The translations under genes were made by a program, and so were the position numbers. Shown in pieces: positions 249 to 20,542 of a stretch of DNA of 64,000 bases. The stretch covers positions 29,250 through 93,249 of the forward strand of contig NZ_JAVDBT010000016.1 in NCBI RefSeq assembly GCF_030848395.1, read 5' to 3'. Source of the stretch: Pseudogemmobacter lacusdianii. Its GTDB lineage: Bacteria; Pseudomonadota; Alphaproteobacteria; Rhodobacterales; Rhodobacteraceae. Under the pieces are notes generated by a model. The model did no database searches, was not told the origin of the DNA, and was given only the letters and a program-made list of their open reading frames with translations. Positions within the stretch are counted from its first letter, which is position 1; the number at the start of each line of letters is the position of its first letter.

Positions 249-1269
249 CGGCGCTCTCCTGATCAAAGGTGACATGCAAAGATTGACCGGGCTCAACCCC
301 GCGCAGGCCCTCACTTGGGGCGTCAAGCTTCAAGGTTTGCGACAGGCCATCAGCATGGCAAGTCAGATAAAGCCGGGTGATCGGACCCTGGAAGAGCTTG
401 GCCTCGACCGTCACGGCTAGGCCCTGCCCTGCCGGAACGATCCGCAGCGCCTCGGCGCGGACCCAGACCTGATGCGCGGCGCTATTGGCCGCGGCCTGCC
501 GGAAAAAGCCGCCAATCCGCAGCTCGCCGCCCTGAGGCGATACGTCAAAGCGGTTGCGGGTGCCGATGAAGCTGGCCGTGTAGCCCGAGGCAGGCATCTC
601 ATAAAGCGCTTCGGGGCGCGAGGCTTGCTCGACGCGGCCTTCATGCATGATCACCACGCGGTCGGCGATGGCCATAGCCTCGGCCTGATCATGGGTCACC
701 AGAACCGTGGTGGTTCCCACCGTCTTTTGGATGCGAGCAATCTCATCGCGCAGATGGTCGCGCACCTGCGCATCCAGCGCCGAGAGCGGCTCGTCCAACA
801 AAAGCACATCCGGGCGCGGCGCCAAGGCGCGGGCCAAAGCGGTGCGCTGTTGCTGACCACCCGAAAGCTGGTTCGGGTGGTGATCGCCGCGCGGGCCAAG
901 CCCGGTCATCTCCAAAAGCTCGTTCACGCGGGCGGTGATGGCAGAGGCGCTTTCCCCTGCAATCTTCAGCGGAAAGCCGATGTTTTGGCGCACGGTCATA
1001 TTGGGAAACAGGGCATAGCCTTGGAACACCATGCCAATGCGGCGCGCTTGCACCGACAGATCGGTGACATCGCGCGTGCCAAAGTGGATCTGGCCGCTGC
1101 TTGGTTGCTCAAGCCCCGCGATGATCCGCAAAAGCGTGGTCTTACCGCAGCCCGAGGCGCCAAGCAGCGCGATCATCTCGCCTTGGGCGATATCAAGGTC
1201 GATGCCGCTGAGCGCGGGTTTGCCGTTGAAGCTTTTGGTGATGGCACCAAGATGGATGGGCGTACTCAT
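232..1269 (-). CDS. ABC transporter ATP-binding protein, aminoethylphosphonate-type importer
   Basis: This 345-residue protein energises import by hydrolysing ATP on the inner face of the membrane. It has Walker A at residues 37-44 (GASGCGKT), a Q-loop Gln at 83, the signature LSGGQQ at 135-140, Walker B at 155-160 and the H-loop His at 193. A C-terminal TOBE-like part of about 80 residues follows, as in the PotA/FbpC/PhnT class. Its start overlaps the upstream permease stop by 4 bp. The neighbouring phnX, flavin oxidoreductase and phosphonate-ester hydrolase make 2-aminoethylphosphonate or a relative the likely substrate. Spermidine or iron import would be the alternative on sequence class alone. 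Confidence 0.85.
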   Translation of the reverse strand: MSTPIHLGAITKSFNGKPALSGIDLDIAQGEMIALLGASGCGKTTLLRIIAGLEQPSSGQIHFGTRDVTDLSVQARRIGMVFQGYALFPNMTVRQNIGFPLKIAGESASAITARVNELLEMTGLGPRGDHHPNQLSGGQQQRTALARALAPRPDVLLLDEPLSALDAQVRDHLRDEIARIQKTVGTTTVLVTHDQAEAMAIADRVVIMHEGRVEQASRPEALYEMPASGYTASFIGTRNRFDVSPQGGELRIGGFFRQAAANSAAHQVWVRAEALRIVPAGQGLAVTVEAKLFQGPITRLYLTCHADGLSQTLKLDAPSEGLRGVEPGQSLHVTFDQESADVFAA

Positions 1270-2093
1270 GATTTTGCCTTTTTCGGCAGGCTGGCGTTGG
1301 CGGTGCGGCCGTTCAGGCTCACCATCGCAATCGACAGGACAAGCGTAATTGTGAAGTTGATCACCGTCATCACGGCAAGAAGGTTGTAGTCCGCATCCGC
1401 ACCTTTGAGCATGTTGAGCGCGTAAAGCTGCACCGTCTCATAGCGCGAGCCGACCAAGAGCTGGGTCAGGACCAACTCGTTAAACGAGGTGCCAAAGGCC
1501 ATAATGCCCGCCATAGCGATGCCGGGGCCGACATTGGGCAAGATCACCCGGATCAGCGTCGCAAAGGGGCTGGCACCACAGGTGCTTGCGGCCTCGGACA
1601 AGGCGCGGACATTGGCCGCCGCCATCGCATTATCCAGCGCCCAATAGGCAAAGGGGAAAGCCAAGGCGACATGGCCCAGACCCAGCAACCATACCGTGCC
1701 TTGCGCTTGCGGCAGGTAGTCTCCGGTCAGGGTCAAAAGCCCAAGACCGATGATCAAAGTGGGCAAGGCGAAGGGCACCGCCGCCAGCATTTGCAGCGCG
1801 ATACCGATCTTCGGATTGCGCACCCTTTGCCACCAGACCGCCGGCAACAGCAGCGCCAGAGTGACAAAGGAGACCACAACCGCCAGACCAAGGGTGCGCA
1901 GCAAGACGCTGACAAAGCGCTGATCGATGAAGGACTTGGCCCAGTGGCTGAGCGTATAGCCTTCGGGCAGCATCTCGGATCGCCAGACGGTGGCCAAAGA
2001 GTAAAGCAGCGTGGCGGCAACCGGCAGAAGGATATAGGCGGCCACGAAGGCCAGCAGAATCCGGCCGGGCAAGACTGAACTTTTCACAGCCAT
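1266..2093 (-). CDS. ABC transporter permease 2, aminoethylphosphonate-type importer
   Basis: This 275-residue inner-membrane protein has about six hydrophobic segments and the binding-protein-dependent permease EAA loop (residues beginning EAASTCGASP, with the conserved Gly), the site that docks to the ATPase. It belongs to the PotC/PhnV-like class. It overlaps the preceding permease gene by 10 bp and the following ATPase gene by 4 bp, implying translational coupling. Substrate assignment to 2-aminoethylphosphonate or a related phosphonate is inferred from phnX in the same operon. Confidence 0.82.
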   Translation of the reverse strand: MAVKSSVLPGRILLAFVAAYILLPVAATLLYSLATVWRSEMLPEGYTLSHWAKSFIDQRFVSVLLRTLGLAVVVSFVTLALLLPAVWWQRVRNPKIGIALQMLAAVPFALPTLIIGLGLLTLTGDYLPQAQGTVWLLGLGHVALAFPFAYWALDNAMAAANVRALSEAASTCGASPFATLIRVILPNVGPGIAMAGIMAFGTSFNELVLTQLLVGSRYETVQLYALNMLKGADADYNLLAVMTVINFTITLVLSIAMVSLNGRTANASLPKKAKS

Positions 2094-2989
2094 TTCGCCC
2101 CCCGTTTAAGAAGCTGACGGTAAGCCAAAAGGCTGACGATCGCGAAAATCATCAAGATCACCGCCATGACCGGCATCCTCTGGCTGCCAAAGAGCGAGCC
2201 CAGCATATTGCGGCTCATGTCAAGCGTGATCAGCGGATAGGCAGGCATTGAGGAATTCGACAGCGCCAAGGGCAGCGCGTATTGGCCGATGGCCGAGGTA
2301 AAGGTCAGGATCCAACCTGCACCCAGATAGGGCAGCAGCATCGGAAGACCGACATAGCGCCAAAACTCGGGACGCGAGGCGCCACAGCATTGGCAGGCCT
2401 CCCACCAGTCCTGCCGTACCAGCCCCATCGCGGGCAGTGTCAGCAGCACATACATCGGCACGAAACCGTAGCTATAGGCGATGACAAGGCCGACAAAGCC
2501 ACTTGGCACCGGCGGGGTGAAGTCAAACCCCATCGAGCGCAGGCCCAGCGTGATCATGCCGTACGTCCCCAGCGCTGCCATGAAACCAAAGGCCAGACCA
2601 ATGCCGGAGAAATTGTTGGCGACCGTCAGAAGGCCCATATGCAGGGTTCTCCAGCCGCGGGTCATGCGGGTTAGCATCCAGCACAAAGGCCCGCCCACCA
2701 AGGTCGCCACCGTGGCGACAGTGGCGGCCAGCATCACCGTATTGCCAATGGCGCGCCAAGCAGAGGCACTTGCAAGCACGCTTTGCCAGTTATCCAGCGT
2801 AAAGCCGGTGCCCTCGGGCCCGGCAAAGCTTCTGCGCACCATAATCAGGCAGGGCAGGATCAGAAGGGTTGCACTGATGACAATGATCGGCAGCGCCGGA
2901 CCCCAGTCCGACAGCCACCGAACGAACGGATTGCGCCCGGCTATTCGCCGGGACGCAACAGGCGCAGCATCGCCAAGGGCGCGCTGCAT
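2084..2989 (-). CDS. ABC transporter permease 1, aminoethylphosphonate-type importer
   Basis: This 301-residue multi-pass membrane protein starts with a hydrophilic N-terminus of about 30 residues before the first membrane segment. It carries an EAA-type cytoplasmic loop (EACQCCGASRPEFWRY) that would contact the ATPase. It resembles PotB/PhnU-class permeases and pairs with the downstream permease to form a heterodimeric channel. The gene begins 2 bases after the stop of the substrate-binding protein gene. The import function is clear; the phosphonate substrate is inferred from neighbours. Confidence 0.82.
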   Translation of the reverse strand: MQRALGDAAPVASRRIAGRNPFVRWLSDWGPALPIIVISATLLILPCLIMVRRSFAGPEGTGFTLDNWQSVLASASAWRAIGNTVMLAATVATVATLVGGPLCWMLTRMTRGWRTLHMGLLTVANNFSGIGLAFGFMAALGTYGMITLGLRSMGFDFTPPVPSGFVGLVIAYSYGFVPMYVLLTLPAMGLVRQDWWEACQCCGASRPEFWRYVGLPMLLPYLGAGWILTFTSAIGQYALPLALSNSSMPAYPLITLDMSRNMLGSLFGSQRMPVMAVILMIFAIVSLLAYRQLLKRGAKWL

Positions 2990-2991
2990 GA

Positions 2992-4095
2992 TCAGCCGTT
3001 CACAACGTTGTCGACCCAGTATTGGGCGAGCGCGCTGACATCGATGGCCGACCAGTCTTCGACTTGGATGACGTCTTTGTACAGCTCATCCGGCAGCCAG
3101 GAGGTGCGAGCCTCGGCCGGAAGCTCCAGATCGCCAAGCACCCAGCGGATCGGGCGTGCGCCGAATTTTGCGAAGGCGATCTGCGCCTCATCCGAAAGAA
3201 CGAAGTCAAGCATCAGCTTGGCAATGTTCATCTTTTCCAAGTTGTAGCGGTTCACTTGGATGGCCGAAGGCGCGTAGATCGTGCCTTGCGGGATGATGAC
3301 TTCGCAGTTGATGCCCTTTTCTTTCAACGCAGCGGCCTGAGCGATGCAGTTGAAGTCGTATTTGATCTGGATCGGCACTTCGCCGCGTTCCATGGTCAGC
3401 GAGGTCGAAGAACCGCCCGCCATTTGCGGCACAAGTTTGCGCGCGAATTCAGCGCCCGGCGCAAGATCGGTGGCCGAGCCGCCGAAGGCATAGGCCCAAG
3501 CGATGAAGGTTGCCATCTGCGTGCCGCCCATGCCCGAGGCATCAACCGCGCTGATCAGGCCGGTGTATTCGGGCTTCAAGAGGTCTTCCCACGAGCGCGG
3601 CACGTTCTTGACCACGTCGGTGTTGACGATGATCGCCGGAACGCCGGTGAAGGTTGCAACCCAGCCCCCCGTTGCCGACTTCAGGCTTGCGGGCAGTTTG
3701 TCGGCATTCGGCGGCAGGTAGTTCGGCACCACGCCGCGCGCTTCAGCGACCGGCCCGAAGAGAATGCCGATATCGCCCGAGATGCCCACCGGGTTGTTAC
3801 GCTCGGCGTCGAACTTCAGGATCTCTTCCATCGAGGACATGTCGGTGTCGTGATGGGTGTAGGTGAAGTTATAGGTCGCGGCCATGCGCTCCATGACTTC
3901 GCCGTAATTGGCCCAAGTCGCCGGCATACCGTAGGAGGTGTAGACCTCAGCCTCAAGCCGTGCAGCCTCGATATCGACCGGAAGCGCCCAGTCTTCCATC
4001 GTTGCGGCAAAGGAGATGGACGGCAGCAAAGTAGCCGCCGAACCAAGCAAGGAAGCCTGCAGCAAAGCACGGCGCGAGAGGGAGAACGTGGTCAT
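2992..4095 (-). CDS. Periplasmic substrate-binding protein, aminoethylphosphonate-type ABC importer
   Basis: This 367-residue protein captures the substrate in the periplasm. The N-terminus has a twin-arginine-like motif (S7-R8-R9-A-L-L), a hydrophobic stretch and a probable cleavage site near residue 30 (SFA-AT), so export may use Tat. The mature part looks like the iron/spermidine/thiamine-binding class of bacterial extracellular proteins, which includes the 2-aminoethylphosphonate binders PhnS and AepX. It is the first transporter gene of the operon, 62 bp after phnX, and is followed at once by both permeases and the ATPase. The ligand is inferred from phnX; no ligand residue was assigned. 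Confidence 0.82.
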   Translation of the reverse strand: MTTFSLSRRALLQASLLGSAATLLPSISFAATMEDWALPVDIEAARLEAEVYTSYGMPATWANYGEVMERMAATYNFTYTHHDTDMSSMEEILKFDAERNNPVGISGDIGILFGPVAEARGVVPNYLPPNADKLPASLKSATGGWVATFTGVPAIIVNTDVVKNVPRSWEDLLKPEYTGLISAVDASGMGGTQMATFIAWAYAFGGSATDLAPGAEFARKLVPQMAGGSSTSLTMERGEVPIQIKYDFNCIAQAAALKEKGINCEVIIPQGTIYAPSAIQVNRYNLEKMNIAKLMLDFVLSDEAQIAFAKFGARPIRWVLGDLELPAEARTSWLPDELYKDVIQVEDWSAIDVSALAQYWVDNVVNG

Positions 4096-4157
4096 CTTTT
4101 AAGAACCCTTCTGGGAGTTAGTCATCTTGGTAGTAAGCAATCGCCGTAAGGCAGGCG

Positions 4158-4961
4158 TCAGGGACGCTGACCTGCGGCGAGGCGGTCTTCGATCTCGGCC
4201 AGCACGGCGGGAAGATCGTTGATGGTGTCGATCACGAAATGCGCCCCAACCGCGGTGAAGCGTGCGGTGGCGCGGTCGCGGGCGGTCGAGCGCTCCTCTG
4301 CGGAAAGCGCGTCAAGCTCGGCCTCGCTCAGCCCGGTTTCATTGCCCGAAAGCGTCAGGCCAACGGTCCAAGCGCCAGCATTGCGGCCCTCTTCAATGCC
4401 CACCGGGGTGTCATCGACTTTGACGACATGGGCGGCATTGGCGATTTCCAGTTTCAGCATATTGGCAAACATGCCCGCCGCATGGGGGCGACCTGCGCAA
4501 AGCTCGTCCGAGCAGAACAGCAGATCCGTCGCCACACCGCCCTCGGCCGCGACGGGCAGGACGCGGGTCATGATCGAGCGGGTATACCCGGTGGTCGATC
4601 CGATCTTCAGACCCCGCGCGCGCAGATCGGCCAGAACCTTTGCGGCGCCGGGAATGGGCGTCGAATAATGGGCTGCCGTTTCGGTGTTGAGCGGCAGGAA
4701 AACCTCATAAAGCGCGTCGATGGCCGCGTCGTCAGGGGCTTTGCCGTGCTGCGCCTGCCATGCGGCGGCGACGCGCGGCGTGGCGAAGACCGCCGCGATA
4801 TGGTCACGCTTGCCGCGCCCCATCGGCGCGCGGGCCTCATCCAAAGTGATCTCCACGTCAAAGGCGGCAAAGGCCTTTACGAAAGCGCCCATCGGCGCGC
4901 GCGATCCGAAATCGACCAGCGTTCCGGCCCAATCGAAGATAACGGCTTCCAGCTTGTTCAT
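4158..4961 (-). CDS. phnX: Phosphonoacetaldehyde hydrolase (phosphonatase)
   Basis: PhnX cleaves the C-P bond of phosphonoacetaldehyde to acetaldehyde and phosphate in the cytoplasm. This 267-residue protein is a HAD-superfamily enzyme with the nucleophile in D10-W-A-G-T. The phosphonatase-specific cap lysine is present in MGRGKRDH (K51), which forms the Schiff base with the aldehyde. The later HAD motif KVDDTP is also present. Length and motifs match authentic PhnX rather than a generic HAD phosphatase. It overlaps the upstream flavin oxidoreductase gene by 4 bp, so the two steps are translationally coupled. No phnW aminotransferase is in the window. Confidence 0.95.
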   Translation of the reverse strand: MNKLEAVIFDWAGTLVDFGSRAPMGAFVKAFAAFDVEITLDEARAPMGRGKRDHIAAVFATPRVAAAWQAQHGKAPDDAAIDALYEVFLPLNTETAAHYSTPIPGAAKVLADLRARGLKIGSTTGYTRSIMTRVLPVAAEGGVATDLLFCSDELCAGRPHAAGMFANMLKLEIANAAHVVKVDDTPVGIEEGRNAGAWTVGLTLSGNETGLSEAELDALSAEERSTARDRATARFTAVGAHFVIDTINDLPAVLAEIEDRLAAGQRP

Positions 4962-6115
4962 TGCAGATCCTCGGGCAAATGGGTGGAGGTGCCGAAGAGG
5001 TCGGCGATGATTTCTTCACCAAAGGCGAAGCTGGTTGAGGCGCCGGTGCCACCGGTGATCATAGCGACCCGGACATGCGGTTCGGGCCGAGCCATAAGCA
5101 CGCGCCGGTCGCTGGCCGAGGCATAGCTGCCCGTCCAATGGCCAATGATGCGGCGATTGGGTTGGTCGATCACCTCGTCAAAGAGACCCATGATGAGATC
5201 ATCGAAATCGGCGGTGGCAAAAGGTTCGACCGCCGGGCCATAAACATGGCTGTCGCCCACGACGAGCGAGCCATCTGCCGATTGCACGACGATCAGATGC
5301 ACGCCCGCCGCGCGATGGGCGGGGGCCTCGCGCTCAAGCCTTGCGATAAGGCTCTCGGCACGCGGCAATGCTCTAAATCCGTCATAGCGGGCCAAGGAAT
5401 GGTCCGACATCACTGCGCTTTGCAGCTTGGGCATGCCATCCGCGGCCACGCGCAGCATCTGCAGCGTGCATTTTTGCAAAGCCGCCTCGCGGGAGATTTC
5501 TGGGTATAGGGTGGCAAAATCGTCACCCGGGCAGACCACAACCGCGCCGGCCGAGATCTCACCTGCCGAGGTAACGACGCCGCGCGCCGTCACTTCAAGC
5601 ACGGCCGTGCCAAAGCGGAAGTCGACGCCTTGAGACTTCTCAAGCCAAGCGGCGAGCTTCGGGAGCGCCTCGCGGCTTTCCACCCGCAGATCGGGGGCGC
5701 TGAGCAGCACGTCACGCAGACCATCAATGCGCAGGTTCGGGATGCGGCTCAGAGCCTCTTCACGCGTAAGAAGCCGGCATTCAGCCCCCATCTCAGGCAG
5801 CGCAAGATAATCATGCAGCAGCGTGGCCGCTTCTTCGCGATAGGCGGGAAGCATTTGGCCTTCTTGGAGAATCGCGATGCCAGCCTGCGGGGCCACCTCG
5901 GCCCAGACATCGCGCGAGCGCCGCGCGCGCCGCCAATGCGGACCGGCCATTTGCCCCGCGACAGTGACAAAGCCAAAATTGCGCACCGAGGCCCCGTTGG
6001 CCCGAGCGTCGCGCTCAATCACGCAGACAGACTTGCCTGCCCGGACCCCTGCCAGCGCGGTGCCAAGCCCTAGGATGCCGGCACCGACAACGACAAGATC
6101 GTAAAACTTTAACAT
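4958..6115 (-). CDS. FAD-dependent amine oxidoreductase of phosphonate catabolism
   Basis: This 385-residue protein has an N-terminal dinucleotide-binding motif (VVGAGILGLG, residues about 9-18) and the DAO/glycine-oxidase fold layout, with a late GGTGAS motif that closes the FAD site. It matches the phosphonate-associated FAD oxidoreductase family often found beside phnX; members have been reported to oxidise 2-aminoethylphosphonate derivatives such as N-methylated or 1-hydroxy forms to phosphonoacetaldehyde. It is the first gene of the minus-strand operon and overlaps phnX by 4 bp, which supports that role here. Exact substrate is unknown. The start ATG follows a hairpin leader with an AGAAGG ribosome site. 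Confidence 0.85.
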   Translation of the reverse strand: MLKFYDLVVVGAGILGLGTALAGVRAGKSVCVIERDARANGASVRNFGFVTVAGQMAGPHWRRARRSRDVWAEVAPQAGIAILQEGQMLPAYREEAATLLHDYLALPEMGAECRLLTREEALSRIPNLRIDGLRDVLLSAPDLRVESREALPKLAAWLEKSQGVDFRFGTAVLEVTARGVVTSAGEISAGAVVVCPGDDFATLYPEISREAALQKCTLQMLRVAADGMPKLQSAVMSDHSLARYDGFRALPRAESLIARLEREAPAHRAAGVHLIVVQSADGSLVVGDSHVYGPAVEPFATADFDDLIMGLFDEVIDQPNRRIIGHWTGSYASASDRRVLMARPEPHVRVAMITGGTGASTSFAFGEEIIADLFGTSTHLPEDLQ

Positions 6116-7568: not shown

Positions 7569-8158
7569 GCTCGGCCCCAGAGGCTTTGGCGCCAGAGGAT
7601 GACATGCGTCGCTCGGCTCCGTTGCCGCTTGAAGAGAGGCCCTCAAGCGCCTCACACCGCACCCGTGAGGTCGCCACACCGTCCCATCTGCGACCACGGG
7701 AACGGGCAAATTCCGTGAGGGTTTTGCGGGACAGCCCTGCGTCAAGACGGGACGCAGAATGAAGTCTTGGCGTAAAGCTTGGACCCAGAATGAAGTCCCA
7801 TCACTTAGCACCCCAGCGATCATCGCAAGCGGTTGACACAGCCACAAGGCACATGGGATGCGACTAGCAGTTGTAGAAATTTGCCGATCACAAACCATAT
7901 GACGTATCGAATAGAGTAAGCCTAAGCCCCTATCTGACGATGCCGAATTCTCAATTCTCATCGTCGCGATAACGTCGCCTGTCGCCCCATTCACGGCGGT
8001 CCTGCGACTGAGACATGACCAAACATTGCTAAGCCCGTCTGCTTTCAGGCGCCCATTCCGGCGTCTGGATCGAAGCCTTGCGCCATAATTTTGGCCCTCA
8101 CCAAGGACGCGAGAAAAGCATGCAGGCAAGGCGCGACCTAAGTGAGAGGAAAGAGATC
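7569..8158. other. 590-bp non-coding region upstream of the adhesin gene
   Basis: No gene is supported on either strand. A 12-bp direct repeat CAGAATGAAGTC lies at 7755-7766 and 7786-7797, each inside a longer similar context. An open minus-strand frame crosses the region but has no ribosome site and no recognisable family, and it runs on over the AraC gene. The adhesin promoter should be here; base composition is slightly more AT-rich between 7850 and 7990. Confidence 0.4.
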
Positions 8159-9988
8159 ATGATGAAAACTCAGATGAGGGGCGGACGCCTGACCATTTGG
8201 AAAGGCCGCGTCGCCAGCATTGCTCCGGCGATGGCGGGCTTGGTGCTGGTGTCCTTTGCGGGCGTCGCGCAAGCTCAAGACGCAACTTACGACAACCTGA
8301 CGGTCAACGAAAACCTCACCGTTACCGGCACGATCGATGCCACGAACGTAGTTGCCGGCACGGTCGATGCCACAAACGTACTTGCCGACACGATCGATGC
8401 CACAAACGTACTCGCCGGCACGGTCGATGCCACAAACGTACTTGCCGACACCATCGATGCTACAAACGTACTTGCCGACACGATCGATGCCGGCAACGTT
8501 ATAGCAGATAACGTTATTGTTGACGGCATCGTATCGGCAGACACCGTATCGGCAGACAACGTGGTGGCCGACAATGTGTTGGCTGACACGGTGGATGCCG
8601 ATCTCGTGGATGCCGTTTTGGTGGAAGCCGAAACCGTGGAAGCTGACTTGGTCAATGCAGACACCGTCAATGCAGACACCGTCAATGCAGACGTGGTGGA
8701 CGCCGGCGTTGTCTATGCAGACACCGTAGATGCTGACGTCGTGGAGGCCGGTGTTGTTTATGCAGACACCGTAGATGCAGACGTCGTGGAGGCCGGCGTT
8801 GTCTATGCAGACACCGTCGATGCTGACGTTGTCGAGGCCGGTGTTGTCTATGCAGACACCGTCGATGCCGACGTTGTCGAGGCTGGCATCGTCAATGCAG
8901 ACACCGTCAATGCCGACGTTGTGGAGGCCGACACCGTCAATGCCGACGTCGTGGAGGCCGGCGCTGTCAATGCAGACACCGTCAATGCAGACGTTGTCGA
9001 GGCAGGTGTCGTCTACGCGGACACCGTAGATGCCGACGTTGTGGAGGCCGGTGTCGTCTATGCAGACACCGTAGATGCTGACGTTGTCGAGGCCGGCGTT
9101 GTCTATGCAGACACGGTAGATGCCGACGTTGTCGACGCCGACGTTGTCTATGCAGACACCGTAGATGCTGACGTCGTGGAGGCGGGCATCGTCTATGCTG
9201 ACAACGCTATTATCGACGAAAACTTGAACGTGGGTAACGACCTGACTGTCGACGGTCATAGCACCATGAACGATGGCCAGACCGTCCGCGGCGGCCAAGA
9301 CGTGCGCGGTGGTCAAACTGTGCGCGGCGGCCAAGAAGTTCGTGGCGGCCAAGATGTCTACGGTGGCTCGACCATCAATGGTGGTCAAACGATCAACGGC
9401 AAGACCACCCTCAACGGCAACCTGTCGATGACCTCGGGCAATGAAAACACGACCTTTGACGTGAACGGCCGCGGTATGACCGTCACCGTGGGCGGCGCAG
9501 GCGATGGCCTTGTTGTTCGCGAAAACCGGGTCAGCTTGCTGACTGCGGACGGTAAGAACGGCATTGAGTCGAAAAAGGGCCATACCAGTGTGACCGGCGA
9601 GAAGTCCTCGACGGTCTCGGGTGGCGGCACCAGCATGGTCGTGTCTTCGTCGGGCGTTGCCTTGGATGACGGCGCCGGTGGCCCGGTCCGCATGAGCGGT
9701 GTGGCCGATGGTATCGCCCCGACCGACGCTGTGAACCGCCGTCAGCTGGATGCTGTGGCTGACAAGATCAACGGTGGCGTGGCGATGGCAATGGCGATGA
9801 CCCAGATGCCCGTCCCGACCGGCGATGAGAAGTTCTCGCTGGGCTTTGCAGCGGGCCACTTCGATGGTGCGAATGCTTTCGCCATCGGCGGTGCTGCGCG
9901 TCTGGGCGAAAACTGGCTGCTGCGCGGCTCGGTGAGCAACTCTTCGGGTGAAACCGGCGCCGGCATCGGCATCGGCTACAGCTGGTAA
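8159..9988 (+). CDS. Trimeric autotransporter adhesin (YadA-anchor family) with pentad/hexad repeat stalk
   Basis: The chosen start is ATG 8159 (second ATG at 8162), preceded by GAGAGGAAAG. The 609-residue protein has a signal peptide ending at AQA near residue 39. Residues 59-345 carry V or I at every fifth position with consensus [VI]-x-A-x-x, and residues 352-424 carry a hydrophobic residue at every sixth. A YadA-stalk-like motif (about 511-530, DAVNRRQL) leads into a C-terminal anchor of about 75 residues that ends in W, expected to form a twelve-strand barrel from three chains. From residue 41 to 376 there is no Lys or Arg, so the stalk is strongly acidic. Surface adhesion or biofilm is the family role; the ligand is unknown. 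Confidence 0.85.
   Translation: MMKTQMRGGRLTIWKGRVASIAPAMAGLVLVSFAGVAQAQDATYDNLTVNENLTVTGTIDATNVVAGTVDATNVLADTIDATNVLAGTVDATNVLADTIDATNVLADTIDAGNVIADNVIVDGIVSADTVSADNVVADNVLADTVDADLVDAVLVEAETVEADLVNADTVNADTVNADVVDAGVVYADTVDADVVEAGVVYADTVDADVVEAGVVYADTVDADVVEAGVVYADTVDADVVEAGIVNADTVNADVVEADTVNADVVEAGAVNADTVNADVVEAGVVYADTVDADVVEAGVVYADTVDADVVEAGVVYADTVDADVVDADVVYADTVDADVVEAGIVYADNAIIDENLNVGNDLTVDGHSTMNDGQTVRGGQDVRGGQTVRGGQEVRGGQDVYGGSTINGGQTINGKTTLNGNLSMTSGNENTTFDVNGRGMTVTVGGAGDGLVVRENRVSLLTADGKNGIESKKGHTSVTGEKSSTVSGGGTSMVVSSSGVALDDGAGGPVRMSGVADGIAPTDAVNRRQLDAVADKINGGVAMAMAMTQMPVPTGDEKFSLGFAAGHFDGANAFAIGGAARLGENWLLRGSVSNSSGETGAGIGIGYSW
8714..9193 (+). repeat. 45-bp tandem repeat array inside the adhesin gene
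   Basis: Residues 186-345 are built from a 15-residue unit (YADTVDADVVEAGVV and variants), about ten copies plus one 10-residue partial copy. The DNA copies are similar but not identical, with silent differences between GTC/GTT/GTG and GCC/GCT/GCA, which suggests older duplications. Upstream, residues 59-118 use a 10-residue unit (TIDATNVLAD type). Copy number could vary by recombination or slippage. Confidence 0.9.
9212..9430 (+). repeat. 18-bp (hexapeptide) repeat in the adhesin gene
   Basis: Residues 352-424 have a hydrophobic residue at each sixth position (I352, V358, V364, M370, V376, V382, V388, V394, V400, I406, I412, L418, M424). The core copies read VRGGQD, VRGGQT, VRGGQE. This switches the period from five to six immediately after the long pentad block. 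Confidence 0.85.
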
Positions 9989-10100: not shown

Positions 10101-10697
10101 GTGAATAAAATTCTGTCTCTGTGCTGCACTGTCGCTCTTTTGATGCCAGGGCTTGCCTTTGCTCAGGACAATGACAAGCCGGTTACAGTGAAAGGTGCAG
10201 GCGGTGCGCCCTGCGCCGAAGCGATCCGGGTTTTCGGGCCAACGGGCACCGACCATGATCGTGGCTTCTATCTTCAATGGGTGAACGGATTTTCGGTTGG
10301 CGTGGCGCTGGCCCATGAGGTTGTCGATGTCTCGCCGACCGGAGACCCGGGTGACTTGGTGAAGATCGCGCTTCTGATCTGCGAAGAGGCCAATTTCGCC
10401 GAAGGGATCTGGCACAGCGCCGTGGCGACCGCCATTGGCCGGATGCGCCCCTATTGGTCGAACGATCCGACACGGGTGAGTGTCACCTATGAAAGCAACA
10501 GCTACTGGTTCTATCAAGATGTCGTCATGCAGCTGCAGACGGATCTGAATCTTCTGGGCTATAATTTGACAGTCGACGGCAACTTTGGCGGTCAAACTGG
10601 CGCGGCAATTGCCGACATTCAAAGCCAGATCAACATCCCGAATATGCCAGTGCCGACCGGCCCCCTCTTTTACGCTATGACCCGCCCCCCGCTTTAA
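10101..10697 (+). CDS. Secreted protein with peptidoglycan-binding-like C-terminus
   Basis: The 198-residue product starts with a clear Sec signal peptide (MNKILSLCC..., cleavage near residue 21, AFA-Q). The middle section (residues about 35-110) is unrecognised and contains two Cys residues that could pair. Residues about 145-180 (DLNLLGYNLTVDGNFGGQTGAAI) resemble the three-helix peptidoglycan-binding domain found in periplasmic hydrolases. It starts with GTG and lies 112 bp after the adhesin gene on the same strand, beyond a strong stem-loop. A cell-wall role beside the adhesin is possible but unproven. Confidence 0.7.
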   Translation: MNKILSLCCTVALLMPGLAFAQDNDKPVTVKGAGGAPCAEAIRVFGPTGTDHDRGFYLQWVNGFSVGVALAHEVVDVSPTGDPGDLVKIALLICEEANFAEGIWHSAVATAIGRMRPYWSNDPTRVSVTYESNSYWFYQDVVMQLQTDLNLLGYNLTVDGNFGGQTGAAIADIQSQINIPNMPVPTGPLFYAMTRPPL

Positions 10698-10767: not shown

Positions 10768-11907
10768 TTATGCCACCCGCTCACCGCCGACCCAGACGCC
10801 GCGCACCAGCGTCGCCGGACCGGATCTTTGCACCCGGATCACATCGCCGCGCAAACCAAGGGCCAAGCTGCCACGATCGGCCAGAGCGGTGGCCTTTGCC
10901 GGTGCCTCGGTCACAGTGCGGACACCGCGCGCGGTGTCGCCCCAAAGATCACCCAGCATCAGCGCCGCCGAGAGGAGGCCCGAGGGCACATAATCCGACG
11001 AAAGGATGTCCAAGAGACCAAGTTCGGCCAAATGCGCCGCCGCGACATTGCCCGAGTGCGAGCCGCCCCGCACCAAGTTCGGCGCGCCCATCATCACCGC
11101 AATGCCCTGATCGCGGCAGGCCTGCGCGGCCTCTTCGGTGGTGGGGAATTCGGCGAAACAGGCGCCATGCGCTTTGGAAGCTGCCACCTGCTCGGCCGTC
11201 GTGTCATCATGGCTGGCAAGGACCGCCCCCAAACGCCGCGCCTCTTGCACGGCCGCCGCCTCATGCACGGCGCCAAGCCGCTCGGCAATGGCCTGCTGGG
11301 TGGCGACATGGTCGCGGAAACCCTCATCCGACATGCCGTGTTTGCCGACCATGTATTCCTTCAACTTCGACAGATCACGAAACTGCCGTGCGCCGGGGGT
11401 ATGGTCCATCAGGCTGACGATGCCGACGGTGTCTTCGGGGCCGAACTTTGCCAGTTCTTCGACCAAGGTCTCCGAGCAGACCTCGGCGCGCAGGTGCAAA
11501 AGATGGTTGATCCGCAAGGCCCCTTTGCCGCGCAAAGCGATGATCTCATCGGCCAAAGCGCGGGCATATTCGCCGTAATTGGTGTTGGAATTGGTGATCG
11601 AACCGACGCGAAGCGCGTCGAACACCGTGGTGATACCAACGCTGGCAAGCTCTCCATCATGGGCCAGAATGGCGGCATGATGCGGCCAATGCACTTTGGG
11701 GCGCGGCTGGATATGGCGCTCAAGATTGTCGGTGTGCAGCTCAATCAGCCCCGGCAACACCAGATCGCCGTCGCAATCCAAAGCCCCCGAAGGCACCGAG
11801 GATCCGCTGGCGATATCGGCAATCTTGCCCTCTTCGATGCGCAGGCTGCCGCGGATCACCTCATGCGGTAACACAAGGGTGGCATTGGCAAAAATCGTAT
11901 CCGTCAT
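10768..11907 (-). CDS. phnM: Alpha-D-ribose 1-methylphosphonate 5-triphosphate diphosphohydrolase
   Basis: PhnM removes pyrophosphate from ribose 1-phosphonate 5-triphosphate to give the 5-phosphate that PhnJ acts on. This 379-residue protein belongs to the amidohydrolase superfamily and has the metal motif H-T-D (in LIELHTDNLERHIQPRP), the PhnM variant of HxH. Later metal-site motifs include LMDHTPG and SHDDTT, and the C-terminus has SSDYVPS. Length and motifs match PhnM. It stands alone on the minus strand, separate from phnGHIJKLN, and faces the DUF1045 gene across a 95-bp promoter region holding a symmetric Pho-box-like site. Confidence 0.93.
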   Translation of the reverse strand: MTDTIFANATLVLPHEVIRGSLRIEEGKIADIASGSSVPSGALDCDGDLVLPGLIELHTDNLERHIQPRPKVHWPHHAAILAHDGELASVGITTVFDALRVGSITNSNTNYGEYARALADEIIALRGKGALRINHLLHLRAEVCSETLVEELAKFGPEDTVGIVSLMDHTPGARQFRDLSKLKEYMVGKHGMSDEGFRDHVATQQAIAERLGAVHEAAAVQEARRLGAVLASHDDTTAEQVAASKAHGACFAEFPTTEEAAQACRDQGIAVMMGAPNLVRGGSHSGNVAAAHLAELGLLDILSSDYVPSGLLSAALMLGDLWGDTARGVRTVTEAPAKATALADRGSLALGLRGDVIRVQRSGPATLVRGVWVGGERVA

Positions 11908-11961
11908 CTTACTTTATCCTGTCTTGCCGAAGCACGCGCTTAGCCGTTGAATGGCACACAG

Positions 11962-11981
11962 CTGTCACAGCGATGTGACAT
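11962..11981. promoter_or_regulatory. Symmetric Pho-box-like element between phnM and the DUF1045 gene
   Basis: TGTCAC-AGCGAT-GTGACA is a perfect inverted repeat. Read to the right it gives CTGTCAC-AGCG-ATGTGAC, and to the left ATGTCAC-ATCG-CTGTGAC; each matches 12 of 14 positions of the CTGTCAY-N4-CYGTCAY Pho-box pattern. It could bind PhoB for both divergent genes. No binding evidence is available here. Confidence 0.5.
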
Positions 11982-12002
11982 CTGGCCGCTAAAGGGCAGC
12001 GC

Positions 12003-12683
12003 ATGAACATCAGACGCTACGCCGTGTATTACGCCCCGCCGGCCGGGGCCTTCGCCGATCTGGCCAATCATTGGCTGGGCTGGGATGCCGAACAGGGGCT
12101 GGCGATAGCCCAGCCCGAATGGGGCCTGCCCGCCGCCGAGATCACCCGCGAGCCGCGCCGTTACGGCTTTCACGGCACCATCAAACCGCCCTTCCGTTTG
12201 GCCACCGATCAAAGCGTTGAGGCTTTGCAAGGGTCGGTGCAGGCGCTGGCGGCCAGCCTTGCGCCGGTCACGCTGCCCGGGTTGCGGCTTAAGAACCTCG
12301 ACGGGTTTCTGGCTTTGGTGCCGCAAGGCGATGAGGGGCCTTTGCGCGATTTGTCCAGCGCGGTGGTGCGCGGGTTGGAGCCCTTCCGTGCGCCCCTGAA
12401 CGAGGCCGAGATCGCCCGCCGTCGCCCCGAAAGCCTGAGCCCGCGGCAGCGCGAGTTGCTGGCGGAATTTGGCTATCCCTATGTGATGGAAGAGTTTCGC
12501 TTCCACCTCACCCTGACCGACCGTTTGGCCCCAGAGATCGCCACTGAAGCCGCAGACATCTTGCAGCGCCAATTCGCCCCGGTGCTGCCGCAGCCCTTCG
12601 CCATCGCTGAGCTTTGCCTTTTTGGCGAAGACAGCGACAGCGGCCAGTTTCACTTGCTGCACCGCGCGCCTCTAAGCGGTTGA
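12003..12683 (+). CDS. DUF1045 phosphonate metabolism protein (2H phosphodiesterase-like)
   Basis: This 226-residue cytoplasmic protein belongs to the DUF1045 family, regularly encoded in alphaproteobacterial C-P lyase loci. It carries the two short motifs of 2H phosphodiesterases, H-G-T-I (in YGFHGTIKPPF) and H-L-T-L (in RFHLTLTDR). It probably hydrolyses a cyclic or linear ribose phosphate made by the C-P lyase pathway, possibly replacing PhnP, which is absent from the window; that is inference. It is divergent from phnM, and its last 34 bp overlap the end of phnN on the other strand. Confidence 0.8.
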   Translation: MNIRRYAVYYAPPAGAFADLANHWLGWDAEQGLAIAQPEWGLPAAEITREPRRYGFHGTIKPPFRLATDQSVEALQGSVQALAASLAPVTLPGLRLKNLDGFLALVPQGDEGPLRDLSSAVVRGLEPFRAPLNEAEIARRRPESLSPRQRELLAEFGYPYVMEEFRFHLTLTDRLAPEIATEAADILQRQFAPVLPQPFAIAELCLFGEDSDSGQFHLLHRAPLSG

Positions 12684-13195
12684 AGCGCTGCCAAAAACCG
12701 GGCGATGCCCTCTTGCGGGGTGGTGTCATTCACCACCTCATGCAGCTCTAGCCCCTCGGGCATGGCCAGAGAGGCGCGGGCCAGACGGGCGGCGAGATCC
12801 GCCCCGGACTCGCGCCCCCGCGCCGCCAGCCGTTGCGCGATGATCTCGGGCGGGGCGGTGACATGGATCACCGCCAGATCCGGGAATTGCGCCTGCGCCG
12901 CGCCCAGCATCTGGCGCGAGCAGTTGAAGAGCAAAACCCCCTCGCCCGCCAGCTCGGCCTTGGGGATCGCATAGCCAAGACCATGCGCGCGCCAGTGCAA
13001 CGCAAATTCGCCCCGCGCCTCGCGCGCGGCGAATTCATCCTCGCTGACGCCCTCGAAATCCTCGCTGCCTGCGGCGGAAGGACGGGTGATCACCCGCCGT
13101 GCCAGCCGCACATCGGCCGCCGATTGCGCCGCCGCTGCCATCAGAAGATCCTTGCCGGCCCCCGAGGGGCCGACGACGGCGACCAGCCGGATCAT
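12650..13195 (-). CDS. phnN: Ribose 1,5-bisphosphate phosphokinase
   Basis: PhnN phosphorylates ribose 1,5-bisphosphate to PRPP, returning the sugar from the C-P lyase pathway to nucleotide metabolism. The 181-residue protein has a P-loop GPSGAGKD near residues 9-16; the Asp where most kinases have Ser/Thr is typical of PhnN. A guanylate-kinase-like fold follows. The start overlaps the stop of phnL by 4 bp, and its 3' end overlaps the convergent DUF1045 gene. It is the last gene of the phnGHIJKLN operon. Confidence 0.92.
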
Positions 13196-13881
13196 GCCGA
13201 AAGACCCGGCGTGAAGCTGGTCACATCCACCAGCCGGTCACAGACCCGCTCACGCGCTGGTTCGTCATGGAAGATGCCAAGGATCGCGGCACCACGGGCT
13301 TTGGCCTCTTCGATCAGCGACAAAACCACTTCGCGGTTCACGGCATCAAGGCTGGCAGTCGGTTCATCGAGCAACAGTGCCGGGTAGTCATGCGCAAAGC
13401 CGCGCGCGATGTTCACCCTTTGCTGCTCACCGCCGGAAAAGGTGGTGGGCGACAGCGCCCACAGCCGCTGCGGGATGTTCAACCGCTCCAGCAAAGCCGC
13501 CGCTTTGGCGCGGGCGGCGTCCACCGGGGTGCCAAGCACCAAAAGCGGCTCGGCGACCACATCGATCGTCGGGACGCGCGGCAAAACCCGCAAGAACTGG
13601 CTGACATAGCCCAGCGTATGGCGGCGCAAAGCCACGATGTCGCGCGGCAAGGCCGTGACCACATCCACATCGCCGATACGGATCGAGCCGCCTGCGGCAA
13701 GGTAATTGCCATAGACCATCCGCATCATGGTGGATTTGCCCGAACCCGACTGGCCAATCAGCCCGACGCATTCGCCAGCCGCCACATCAAGATGCCCCCC
13801 CACCATCACCGGCAGCACGGTGCCGCCTTGATTGTGCAGGGTGAAGTTTTTGGAAAGATTACGAACTTCGATCATCATCAC
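13192..13881 (-). CDS. phnL: C-P lyase accessory ABC-type ATPase PhnL
   Basis: PhnL is an ABC-type nucleotide-binding subunit associated with the C-P lyase core rather than with a transporter. The 229-residue protein has Walker [10 protein letters not shown] (about 42-50), signature [14 protein letters not shown] and Walker B ALLLDEP. It overlaps phnK by 4 bp upstream and phnN by 4 bp downstream. The family is required for methylphosphonate activation with PhnGHI. Assignment from order and sequence is firm. Confidence 0.93.
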
Positions 13882-14669
13882 ACCTGCAAGACCGAGGAGA
13901 CAAGAAGCTGGGTATAGGCATGCTGCGGATCATCCAGCACCTGATCGGTCAGGCCCGCCTCAACCACATGCCCGGATTTCATCACCATCAGCCGGTCGGC
14001 CAAAAGCCGCACCACCGCCAGATCATGGGTCACGATCACCACCGACAGGCCCAGATCGCGCACCAAGCCGCGCAAGAGATCCAAAAGCCGCGCTTGGACC
14101 GAGACATCAAGGCCCCCTGTCGGCTCATCCATAAAGACCAGCTTCGGCGCGGTGACCAGATTGCGCGCGATCTGCAAGCGCTGCTGCATCCCGCCCGAGA
14201 AGGCCGAGGGACGATCATCGATCCGCTCGGCGGCGATCTCGACCCGGCCAAGCCAATCGGTCGCGGTGTCGCGGATCTGCCCGTAATGCCGGGCCCCCAC
14301 GGCCATCAGCCGCTCGCCCACGTTGCCGCCAGCGCTGACGCCCATCCGCAACCCATCGCGCGGGTTTTGGTGCACATAGGCCCAATCGCTGCGCAACAGA
14401 CGGCGACGCTCGGCCTCGCTTAAGGCCAGCACATCCACACCATTGTAGGACAGCCCCCCGGCATCGGGGCGTTGATGCCCTGCCAAGCAGGACAAAAGCG
14501 TCGATTTGCCCGACCCGCTTTCGCCCACGATCCCCATCACCTCGCCGGGATAAAGATCAAAGCTCACGTCTTTGCAGCCGATGCGCGCCCCGTAATAGCG
14601 GCTCAGACCCTGCACCGAGAGCAAGGGTGCGGCGGCCTGCGCCGAGAGTTGTCGCTCCATCATGACCAT
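13878..14669 (-). CDS. phnK: C-P lyase core-associated ABC-type ATPase PhnK
   Basis: PhnK binds the PhnGHIJ core through PhnJ and couples ATP hydrolysis to turnover. The 263-residue protein has Walker [10 protein letters not shown], signature [14 protein letters not shown] and Walker [13 protein letters not shown]. It resembles dipeptide-transporter ATPases, as PhnK does in other bacteria. Its first base is the last base of the upstream phnJ stop region (shared base 14669), and its stop overlaps phnL. No membrane partner is encoded next to it, in line with a non-transport role. Confidence 0.93.
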
Positions 14670-15535
14670 TATGCGGCCTCCGGGGAAAGGCGCCCGCGAT
14701 GGCCTTCGGCCTGCCGCGTGGCGCAGAAATCGGTGTCCGAGCAGACGAACATCCGGCTGCCCTGATCGTCGGTGATCACCTCATCGAGATAGCTGGTGCC
14801 GCAGCCACAAAGGTCGCAGTTATGCTCGGCTTTTGAGGCTTGGAACGGGTGATCGTCGAAATCGAGGCTGACGACCTTGGTGAAGGGCGGCAGAGCGTAG
14901 ATCCGGCATTCGCGACCGGCCCCAAAAAGCTGGATGGCGGGACTGTCATTCAGTTTGGGGTTGTCGAATTTCGGGATCGGAGAAGGGTCCATCACATAGC
15001 GGCCCTCGACCTTGACCGGATAGGCATAGGCGGTCGAGACCTCGCCGTGGCGGGCGATGTCTTCGTAAAGCTTCACATGCATCAGCCCGTATTCTTCCAG
15101 CTCATGCATCTTGCGCGTCTCGGTCTCGCGCGGTTCAAGGAAGCGCAAAGGCTCTGGGATCGGCACTTGATAGACTAGGATCTGGCCCTCGCTCAGCGGC
15201 TGTTCGGGGATGCGGTGGCGGGTCTGGATGATCGTCGCCTCAGCCGTTGCCTCGGTCACCGCCACGCCCGAGGTGCGCTGGAAGAAGCGCCGGATCGAGA
15301 CTGCGTTGGTGGTGTCATCCGCGCCTTGGTCGATCACCTTCAACCGGTCGACCGGCGTCAGGCAGGCTGCCGTCACCTGCACCCCGCCGGTGCCCCAGCC
15401 ATAAGGCATCGGCATCTCACGGCTGGCAAAGGGCACTTGGTAGCCGGGCACCGCCAAGGCTTTCAACAAGGCCCGGCGCAGCATTCTTTTCGTCTGTTCG
15501 TCCAGATAGGCGAAATTATAAGCCTGATCGGTCAT
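14669..15535 (-). CDS. phnJ: Carbon-phosphorus lyase catalytic subunit (radical SAM) PhnJ
   Basis: PhnJ uses S-adenosylmethionine and a 4Fe-4S cluster to break the C-P bond of ribose 1-phosphonate 5-phosphate. I chose the ATG at 15535 (MTDQAYNFAYLDEQT), giving 288 residues and the family's usual N-terminus; a longer frame upstream is non-homologous. The C-terminal part carries C-x2-C-x21-C-x5-C (CDLC ... CSDTDFC), the cluster ligands plus the Cys that makes the thiyl radical. All catalytic residues are intact. The start is 70 bp from the phnI stop, the widest gap in an otherwise overlapping operon. Confidence 0.95.
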   Translation of the reverse strand: MTDQAYNFAYLDEQTKRMLRRALLKALAVPGYQVPFASREMPMPYGWGTGGVQVTAACLTPVDRLKVIDQGADDTTNAVSIRRFFQRTSGVAVTEATAEATIIQTRHRIPEQPLSEGQILVYQVPIPEPLRFLEPRETETRKMHELEEYGLMHVKLYEDIARHGEVSTAYAYPVKVEGRYVMDPSPIPKFDNPKLNDSPAIQLFGAGRECRIYALPPFTKVVSLDFDDHPFQASKAEHNCDLCGCGTSYLDEVITDDQGSRMFVCSDTDFCATRQAEGHRGRLSPEAA

Positions 15536-15605
15536 CGGGTTTTGACCTTTTTCGGGGCCGCAGGGCGGCCGGATTTCAGGAAGGCAAGGACAAGGAAATG
15601 CGGCA

Positions 15606-16694
15606 TCACGCTGCATCCTCGGGCTTTTGCGCAGCGATCGCCTCGGCGCGCAGGCGGCGGACAAGCTCCAGCTCGGCTTGGAAATCGACGTAATGCGGCA
15701 GTTTGATATGTTCGAGGAAGCCAGTGGCTTGGATGTTGTCGCAATGCGACAGCACAAACTCCTCATCCTGCGCCGGGGCGCCGATGTTATCCTCGCCCAG
15801 CTCTTTCCAGCGCAAAGCCCGGTCGACAAGGCTCATCGAGATCGACTTGCGTTCGGACTGGCCAAGCACAAGGCCGTAACCACGGGTGAATTGCGGCGGC
15901 TCGATTTTAGAGCCTTTGAACTGGTTCACAGACTCGCATTCGGTCAGCTCGATCTCGCCAATCTCGACGGCAAAGCCCAACTCGGGCAGTTCCACCTCAA
16001 CCGCGACGCGGCCAATGCGCAACTCGCCCACGAAAGCATGGGTGCGCCCGTAGCCGCGCTGGGTGGAATAGGCCAGCGCAAGGGTGAAGCCCTCATCCGC
16101 CCGCGCCAAGGCCTGCAAGCGCAACGCCCGGTCGGCGGGCAATTCCAGCGGCTCACGGGTCAAGTCGCGCGGGGTGAGATCGCTGAAAGGCTCGGCCTCG
16201 ATCAGACCGTCTTGGTCCAAAAGCTCAGTCACATGCGGGACCGCCTCGCCGATTGCGGGGCTGCGCGGCGCGGCGGGGGCCTCGCCTTCCGCCATCAGAG
16301 CAAAGTCCAAAAGCCGGTGGGTATAGTCGAAGGTCGGCCCAAGGATTTGGCCACCGGGGAGGTCCTTGAAAGTCGCCGAGACGCGGCGGTCCACGGTCAT
16401 TGACGCAGTATCAACCGGGGTTGAGGCGGTGAAACGCGGCAAAGTGGTGCGATAGGCGCGGATCAAGAACACCGCTTCAATCAGATCGCCCCGCGCCTGT
16501 TTGATCGCCAAAGCGGCGAGATCAGGGTCGTAAAGCGAGCCTTCGGCCATCACCCGGTTCACCGCCAGCGCCAGCTGTTCGCGGATCTGCGCGATGCTCA
16601 ACTCGGCAATGGCAAGATCGCCGCGCCGCTCTTCGGCAAGCCAGGCATGGGCGGCATCGATGGCACGCTCGCCGCCTTTGACAGCAACATACAT
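15606..16694 (-). CDS. phnI: C-P lyase core subunit PhnI
   Basis: PhnI is the nucleosidase-like subunit that, with PhnG, PhnH and PhnL, exchanges the adenine of ATP for phosphonate. This 362-residue protein matches PhnI in length and in its start (MYVAVKGGERAIDAAHAWLAEERRG). Visible motifs include the TRGYGL and VLGQSERK region toward the C-terminus. It overlaps phnH by one base, so the two are translationally coupled. The C-terminal tail is rich in Ala and charged residues. Confidence 0.94.
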   Translation of the reverse strand: MYVAVKGGERAIDAAHAWLAEERRGDLAIAELSIAQIREQLALAVNRVMAEGSLYDPDLAALAIKQARGDLIEAVFLIRAYRTTLPRFTASTPVDTASMTVDRRVSATFKDLPGGQILGPTFDYTHRLLDFALMAEGEAPAAPRSPAIGEAVPHVTELLDQDGLIEAEPFSDLTPRDLTREPLELPADRALRLQALARADEGFTLALAYSTQRGYGRTHAFVGELRIGRVAVEVELPELGFAVEIGEIELTECESVNQFKGSKIEPPQFTRGYGLVLGQSERKSISMSLVDRALRWKELGEDNIGAPAQDEEFVLSHCDNIQATGFLEHIKLPHYVDFQAELELVRRLRAEAIAAQKPEDAA

Positions 16695-17260
16695 CAGTTG
16701 GCCTCCACTTTGGTGCTGCGCGGCAAGGCGGCAAGGCGCTTGTCGCAGGTCAGGATCACGTCAAAGCCCAAGGGGAAAAGCTTGCGATTGGCTTGGAAGG
16801 CGGCCGTCTCGGGCAGCGAAAGCCGCGCCTCCGCCGCGATCCCCGGCCCGGTCAATCTGGCCCCGGTCGCCGTCAGTTCCGGCATCTCGACGATCAGCGT
16901 GGCTGAGCGGTCGGGATAGGCAGGATCGCCGATTTTGAACTGGGTGACGGGGTGCAGATCCTCCCAAGCGCCAAGGGCGAACTGCGCCTCTTGTGCTGAG
17001 ACCAGCGGCGCGCCGCAGTGAAAGGCGATCCAACTGCGCAGATCAGCACAATCGTAGGCTCCGGCCAGATGCAGAGGGGTCGTCGCATCGGTCAGCGTCA
17101 AAAGCGTGACACCGGCGGCGACGGACAAGGGCGCAGGCGGCTCGGCGCCTAGCACGGTATGGATGCGACCCGGCCGCGCCATCGCTTCAAGCAAAGCGCG
17201 GAACGCATGGGCAGATTGCGGGGCGGGATCGGCGAAACCGCCGGTCAAGATTGCGGTCAT
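16694..17260 (-). CDS. phnH: C-P lyase core subunit PhnH
   Basis: PhnH is a small non-catalytic subunit of the PhnGHIJ core complex, with a PLP-transferase-like fold. This 188-residue protein has family features such as the N-terminal FADPAPQSAHAFRALLEAMA and the segment LTDATTPLHL. It overlaps phnG by 4 bp and phnI by one base. It acts in the cytoplasm. Confidence 0.92.
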   Translation of the reverse strand: MTAILTGGFADPAPQSAHAFRALLEAMARPGRIHTVLGAEPPAPLSVAAGVTLLTLTDATTPLHLAGAYDCADLRSWIAFHCGAPLVSAQEAQFALGAWEDLHPVTQFKIGDPAYPDRSATLIVEMPELTATGARLTGPGIAAEARLSLPETAAFQANRKLFPLGFDVILTCDKRLAALPRSTKVEAN

Positions 17261-17736: not shown

Positions 17737-17759
17737 TTGTCCTCGACAAGATTTCGGAC

Positions 17760-17779
17760 TTGTCTAGATAACTAGACAA
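17760..17779. promoter_or_regulatory. Palindromic operator, probable PhnF binding site
   Basis: TTGTCTAGATAACTAGACAA is a perfect palindrome: 8-bp arms around ATAA. It lies 24 bp upstream of phnG and 67 bp upstream of phnF, and a related half-site (ACTATACAA) follows at once. GntR/HutC-type regulators such as PhnF bind short palindromes centred on TATA/TAGA-like cores. Assignment to PhnF is inferred from position. Confidence 0.7.
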
Positions 17780-17827
17780 CTATACAAATCCATAAAGGCC
17801 CGCCGCTTCGGCCTCAACGCTTTTGTT

Positions 17828-17845
17828 GTGAAATTTTGGTGACAG
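17828..17845 (-). promoter_or_regulatory. Pho-box-like site upstream of phnG
   Basis: Read on the minus strand the site is CTGTCAC-CAAA-ATTTCAC: the first half matches the Pho-box half-site fully and the second at 5 of 7. It lies 92 bp upstream of phnG and touches the phnF start codon, so PhoB binding could also hinder phnF expression. Confidence 0.5.
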
Positions 17846-18565: not shown

Positions 18566-18584
18566 CGGTCAGGGTGTGGCGGGA

Positions 18585-20539: not shown

Positions 20540-20542
20540 GAT

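Follow-up and report, generated by a model that had tools for sequence, protein, structure and literature searches.

According to the available portions of the accounts cited here and below, the stalks of trimeric autotransporter adhesins (TAAs; the YadA family, type Vc) are primarily right- or left-handed coiled coils, and their necks follow the consensus DAVNxxQL (PMC7247746). Phage T4 offers other fibre types. The helix of gp5 has the repeat VxGxxxxx, in which Val (position g) lies inside and is followed, after one residue, by Gly (position a), with a kink of ~130 degrees across these last two residues; its 5 + 18 strands span 110 Å (PMC3004832, PMC4576200). gp12 is narrower than gp5, averages 6 residues per turn and has a hydrophobic interior (PMC3004832), and gp34 is a 2 nm triple beta-helix whose main-chain hydrogen bonds are exclusively inter-chain (PMC5537660). 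We analysed a 64,000-nucleotide stretch of Pseudogemmobacter lacusdianii DNA (contig NZ_JAVDBT010000016.1, positions 29,250 to 93,249; hereafter the window) that encodes a YadA-anchored protein with a stalk of strict five-residue repeats (pentads) followed by six-residue repeats (hexads). This stalk is real, selected, rare and mounted on an ordinary autotransporter anchor. On balance, we favor the view that the protein is a headless trimeric autotransporter whose stalk is an intertwined three-chain beta-helix of the phage-fibre type, a view that we hold with somewhat better than even confidence.

The anchor and neck place the protein in type Vc. As the first-pass annotation of this DNA stated, the protein carries a YadA anchor (PF03895, 59 bits, residues 551-609), and DAVNRRQL, followed by a coiled coil, fits the neck consensus. 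The coiled-coil stalk that is usual, but not obligatory, in this type is absent. The longest run of V, I or L at period seven is 3, in line with the earlier claim that the stalk is not a heptad coiled coil, and AlphaFold2 (AF2) predicts strands in its place. Thus, unlike the YadA-family adhesins with their right- or left-handed coiled-coil stalks (PMC7247746), the window protein combines the shared anchor and neck with a beta-type stalk and no head. We conclude that a head domain is lacking because the pentads start ~20 residues past the signal peptide; the short stretch ahead of them holds two six-residue-like units (LTVNEN LTVTGT). From its anchor family, the protein is probably an outer-membrane homotrimer.

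Residue numbers count from the ATG at 8159, which puts the start of residue 59 at 8333 and the end of residue 424 at 9430. Between residues 59 and 345, with one +1 shift, V or I occupies all 59 core positions at period five (54 V, 5 I). Positions 59-119 read IVVVIVVVIVIVV (13), and positions 120-345 read I followed by 45 V (46). With a single exception, an Asp, the residue at +2 from the core is Ala (57 of 58 units). Both regularities had been described in the first-pass annotation, and both hold. At period five, V/I runs reach a length of 47. When residues 41-430 were shuffled 5000 times, the longest such run averaged 4.06 and never exceeded 11. The +1 shift, which had been assigned to residues 124/125, exists, but its site is not fixed: the two registers overlap at residues 115-124, and the shift amounts to one six-residue unit that can be placed anywhere there. 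Read in sixes, residues 352-424 give IVVMVVVVVIILM, with 13 of 13 core residues drawn from V, I, L or M (mean 2.48 and maximum 7 in 5000 shuffles of residues 351-430). The reported period of six therefore stands, with the small correction that its columns also hold M and L. The step from core 345 to core 352 is seven residues. In total, the stalk contains 58 pentads (59-349) and 13 hexads (352-424). The length of the higher-order unit varies along the chain (10, 5, 15, 25, and 15 residues). As the number of pentads per unit changes, no face-specific turn is kept.

The pentads are under selection. In the pentads of residues 125-345, nonsynonymous divergence (pN) is 0.000 at both V and A codons, while synonymous divergence (pS) is 0.64 and 0.68, respectively. 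In the same pentads, pN is 0.46 at +1, 0.17 at +3, and 0.58 at +4, and pN/pS is 0.21 among twelve 15-residue units, two of which overlap. V(0) and A(+2) are thus the only invariant positions at the codon level, and, being two apart, they would have the spacing expected for two inward-facing residues of one beta-strand. Since the V and A residues are fixed despite synonymous divergence, slippage alone is not sufficient to explain the pentads. The pattern is selected, not merely the product of recent duplication, and the repeats are old or rapidly re-coded. We therefore consider it very unlikely that the stalk is a disordered or decayed low-complexity spacer grown by slippage. The DNA is strongly repetitive, and the 290 residues of the pentad region contain eleven amino-acid types, 69 acidic residues and no basic ones, as such a spacer might. 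However, the synonymous divergence of 0.64-0.68 alongside unchanged V and A residues, the absence of frame breaks in all 609 codons, and a beta-branched core every five residues argue against it.

A period of five and an abundance of Ala and Asp also characterize pentapeptide-repeat proteins, and the window protein matches the NCBIfam HetL model (E 1.5e-9, 37.6 bits) and PDB entry 4yfo (E 1.3e-8). However, the HetL score is far below its 260-bit cut-off, and no Pfam pentapeptide family matched at E <= 1 (PF03895 was the sole match). The register also differs. The conserved V lies at Ala+3 or Ala-2, rather than L or F at Ala+2, and the Ala+2 position, which would be the center of a pentapeptide repeat, evolves freely (T 21, V 20, N 10, I 3, L 3, A 1 among the 58 units). 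On register and Pfam results, we rejected a canonical pentapeptide repeat, against which the first-pass annotation had argued from the central position, and it is highly improbable that the protein joins a genuine A(D/N)LXX repeat to a YadA anchor.

The least probable of the readings that we weighed is a coiled coil of uncommon type, alpha-helical or alpha/beta, with hexad- or nonad-spaced beta-layers or a right-handed 15-residue periodicity. Besides the prevalence of coiled coils in TAA stalks (PMC7247746), it could draw on the 15-residue units, which are readable as pentadecads (15/4), a periodicity named in PMC4786415, and on the beta-layers that exist in TAA stalks (PMC4786415). Nonetheless, V, A, D, T, N, and G predominate in the 290 pentad residues, K, R, Q, and M are absent, the period-seven runs are as short as described above, and the AF2 model contains strands only. 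As the stalk has no heptad runs interrupted by hexads or nonads, which is how PMC4786415 defines the alpha/beta form in its available part, both the heptad and the alpha/beta coiled coil were rejected.

What the hexads mean became clearer from relatives. By the C-terminal half, the closest are adhesins on Cereibacter plasmids (L004 and L005) and a few other proteins. tblastn matches to the three best Cereibacter plasmid records span residues 346-609 at 32.5-48% identity, and protein matches reach residues 340-560. L007, from a genome of the same bacterial family, is the same protein as L005, which is on a Cereibacter sphaeroides plasmid. Like the window protein, the Cereibacter adhesins (WP_233864263.1, WP_227590677.1) have the homologous C-terminal part, and their stalks mix V-x-G hexads with pentads; unlike it, they have few Ala residues at +2 and a period-five V/I/L run of at most 3 (measured in one, L007).

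We divided the stalks into steps based on the core residue alone, ignoring its neighbors. In L004, L005, and two further proteins (P0003 and P0002), Gly occupies +2 in 64 of 97 six-residue steps but in only 3 of 53 five-residue steps (nominal Fisher p 6e-14, which is not a true probability as the units are related). Across the nine of 31 protein hits with z > 4, the counts are 209/405 and 27/228. In these nine proteins, Gly showed no excess in six-steps over five-steps at +1 (42/405 versus 41/228), +3 (21 versus 16), or +4 (32 versus 21). The remaining 22 proteins (z <= 4) follow the same direction more weakly (187/676 versus 85/604), and four of them show no Gly trend. In the window protein, Gly is at +2 in 9 of 17 six-steps. 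Ala at +2 marks the five-steps of the window protein (53/55) but not those of the relatives (only 11/53 in the first four proteins and 21/228 in the nine), which merely lack Gly. Within the searches made, we found no published description of this tie between six-residue steps and Gly.

Because the relatives interleave five- and six-residue units, the simplest view is that both periods belong to a single fibre with two types of unit. The first-pass annotation had suggested a special junction of two geometries near residue 348. The comparison does not support that idea, and we dropped a junction of two separate folds as the simplest reading; the change near 348 is most simply a switch of unit type. 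The Cereibacter stalk also matches the tail-fibre family phrog_4549 (E 2.5e-9). Two other relatives, P0016 and P0017, pass the cut-off for bactofilin (PF04519) and P0003 falls short of it; the window hexads have no PF04519 match in Pfam at E <= 1, and bactofilin membership was rejected for them. P0022, which is related to the Cereibacter stalk, has the tail-spike chaperone Peptidase_S74 at its end instead of a YadA anchor; thus, a similar stalk type carries two different ends.

The pentad itself recurs in phages. A DNA pattern for seven V/I-x-A-x-x units found at least 120 stretches in viral contigs. Pentads lay in an open frame in 90 of the 240 viral loci read, and 31 of these 90, picked by eye, encode virion-like proteins with repeats of the IAANAITANEI type; the others resemble simple repeats or pentapeptide-repeat genes read in antisense. 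We scanned 10 of the 31 virion-like open reading frames against PHROG. All 10 match tail families (E <= 1e-5), and nine have additional matches to phrog_26466 (unknown function) and phrog_32822 (virion structural protein). The window protein matches the same two families (E 1.7e-14 and 2.6e-7), with scores that repeat composition may inflate, and has no match to phrog_892 at E <= 1. One of the 10, L090, carries Peptidase_S74, and none of the 10 has a YadA anchor. A tail-fibre-like protein among the 31, L034 (frame 2242-5766), has 64 V, I or L residues in a row at period five, compared to 47 in the window protein. These fibres (PHROG 892, 26466, 32822 and others) share with the window stalk a hydrophobic residue at 0, Ala at +2, and long runs, but the residues at +1, +3, and +4 differ (TA.. 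and AA.. types versus D/E/Y-A-D/G in the window). With the low-complexity filter on, tblastn of the window pentads against phages gave no match, and a related-locus search of viral contigs found none. The likeness may reflect common descent, exchange or convergence on a simple geometry.

Among adhesins, the stalk is rare. Of 295 genomes of the bacterial family, 14 encode a YadA anchor, as do 15 of 385 in a class sample and 40 of 299 in a phylum sample; the samples overlap and include the P. lacusdianii genome. From these, 71 anchor loci were fetched, of which 62 had readable frames (up to ~500 residues ahead of the anchor); nine without a placeable frame were left out. A V/I/L run of at least 7 at period five is present in two of the 62: the window protein and L010, which is an autotransporter encoded in a different genus of this family. 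L010, apparently cut by the contig end, has a pentad stalk of the IQDNAVTNAKI type, with a run of 10 ahead of a coiled coil and anchor, and matches the tail-fibre family phrog_892 (E 8.9e-21). Within the genus, one of 13 genomes, its own, carries the stalk protein. The related-locus search of genome contigs returned one locus, a Phenylobacterium gene (L003) that by eye is pentapeptide-repeat-like. The uniqueness of the stalk is reduced because the same pentad is present in many phage virion proteins, in one of them at greater length, and a different pentad stalk in L010. Another YadA-anchored protein of the family, L017, has a long collagen-like Gly-x-y stalk.

The T4 fibres are among the nearest described systems. 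The window hexads have the form V-x-G-x-x-x with a constant step and Gly in 9 of 13, and the pentads have A in place of G. gp5 shares the Val-one residue-Gly corner, a strict period, and an acidic surface (PMC3004832, PMC4576200); it differs in its step of 8 rather than 6 or 5, its partly hydrophilic interior, and its lack of a membrane anchor. gp12 and gp34 resemble the predicted fibre in being 2 nm wide with a hydrophobic interior, in the ~6 residues per turn of gp12, and in their short V-x-G hexad stretches, which are visible in gp34 (VNGSLT, VNGTAT) and gp12 (IYGTLR, ITGTVR). They differ in having no clear or gp5-like repeat, and the available parts of their descriptions mention no pentads. 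Segmenting the T4 proteins into steps was mostly no better than segmenting shuffles. Among 500 shuffles, the score was reached by 11 for gp34 901-944, 116 for gp34 1014-1047, 283 for gp34 1105-1128, 289 for gp12 240-330, and 76 for gp5 with mixed steps; none reached the score of gp5 segmented with step 8 only. PDB searches with the hexads, the Cereibacter stalk, and the phage pentads gave weak, compositional or hexapeptide-helix matches, or none.

One structure prediction points to another arrangement. For a single chain, AF2 folds the main pentads into a confident solenoid (predicted local distance difference test, pLDDT, 91-98 at residues 139-328). Each chain might therefore form its own beta-solenoid, with three side by side on the anchor. 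The pentads, at 3 or 4 per turn, would be a reversed relative of the pentapeptide-repeat helix, the hexads would be bactofilin-like or a left-handed helix, and the pentad part would be ~7-9 nm long. We regard this arrangement as rather unlikely, though it deserves more weight than the other alternatives. AF2 over-predicts solenoids for perfect repeats and yields confident ones from meaningless repeats, according to the available part of PMC11795689. Single-chain prediction, which had been proposed as a check along with the first-pass annotation, succeeded only for the regular pentads; it failed on the hexads (pLDDT 35-51), and with an alignment of nine sequences it reached no confident fold for L004, a relative with mixed steps (mean pLDDT 51.5). 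As regards the four-sided right-handed beta-helix of pentapeptide-repeat proteins, AF2 gave a solenoid for the pentads, but one that had no Foldseek match at E <= 0.001. The center position of the would-be pentapeptide repeat is unconserved, being T, V, N, I, L or A, and higher-order units do not hold a constant number of pentads.

In the intertwined three-chain fibre that we favor, each chain would contribute a single strand of 5 or 6 residues to every layer. The conserved V or I would point into a common core, and the residue at +2 would form a corner at which the chain kinks to the next face, analogous to the V-x-G of the eight-residue gp5 step. An Ala corner would give a five-residue step (V-x-A-x-x) and a Gly corner a six-residue step (V-x-G-x-x-x). 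From the membrane outward, the chain would run through anchor and neck, a beta-rich base, 13 hexads, and 58 pentads to the tip, without a head. At 0.48 nm per layer, the 58 + 13 units would extend ~28 + 6 = 34 nm, forming a polyanionic rod ~34 nm by ~2 nm. The "trimeric fibre geometry" suggested at first pass is thus plausible. The role of the protein would be to present an adhesive rod of strongly acidic character outside the outer membrane, as other autotransporter passengers do; adhesion or spacing is the function suggested by the anchor family only.

Table 1. Features of the adhesin gene, in window coordinates
Feature	Coordinates	Strand	Evidence
Coding sequence of the trimeric autotransporter	8159..9988	+	Open frame, 609 amino acids and stop; YadA_anchor at C terminus
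Long signal-peptide-like N terminus, residues 1-40, ending in AQAQ	8159..8278	+	Translation read by eye
Pentads, first part, residues 59-118; 10-residue units alternate (IDATN VLADT)	8333..8512	+	Lag-10 identity 23/30 at +1, +3, +4
+1 register step, a single six-residue unit amid pentads, residues 115-125	8501..8533	+	Overlap of two registers
Pentads, main part, residues 120-349, V-x-A-x-x, mostly 15-residue units (VYADT VDADV VEAGV)	8516..9205	+	Repeat counts; AF2
Hexads V-x-G-x-x-x, residues 352-424	9212..9430	+	Core hydrophobic 13/13; Gly at +2 in 9/13
Membrane-proximal beta-rich region, ~residues 430-520	9446..9718	+	Common to relatives (tblastn, protein matches)
Neck motif DAVNRRQL, residues 523-530, then short coiled coil	9725..9748	+	Read from sequence
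YadA-type membrane anchor, residues 551-609	9809..9985	+	PF03895, 59 bits, cut-off 22.7

On the opposite strand, a 573-codon open frame (8138-9859) runs antisense to the adhesin gene and is most simply explained by codon periodicity. The adhesin gene is followed directly by 10101-10697 (+), which encodes a small, secreted-looking protein ending in a peptidoglycan-binding domain (PF01471, 30.2 bits). The adhesin gene is flanked on the minus strand by what we take, by resemblance, to be a phosphonate uptake and hydrolysis cluster and a C-P lyase (phn) cluster (232-6115 and 10768-23288).

The repeat itself was already present in sequence databases in phage-fibre-like form; its strict pentad form on a bacterial adhesin is undescribed within the searches made. 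In the open-access literature, we found no description of a strict pentad triple helix or of a TAA with such a stalk. Tentatively, this may be the first strictly periodic triple beta-helix of five-residue strands on a bacterial adhesin and the thinnest in a series of 8 (gp5), 6 (gp12 and the hexads), and 5 residues. A Gly or Ala corner would set strand length, and a bacterium and phages would build rods of chosen width from one code, with the widths placed end to end here and mixed in the relatives. As a naturally occurring protein, the stalk also allows a test of the reported habit of AF2 of making solenoids from perfect repeats, and L034 is a good target for solving the pentad fold. If our interpretation is correct, the corner rule (Val-x-Gly for six, Val-x-Ala or other for five) would help to predict width and length from sequence for a broad class of phage fibre proteins that are still uncharacterized, and the stalk would offer protein engineering a genetically simple trimeric rod of adjustable length. 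For the organism, it would mean that an outer-membrane adhesin stalk follows the plan of a phage tail fibre.
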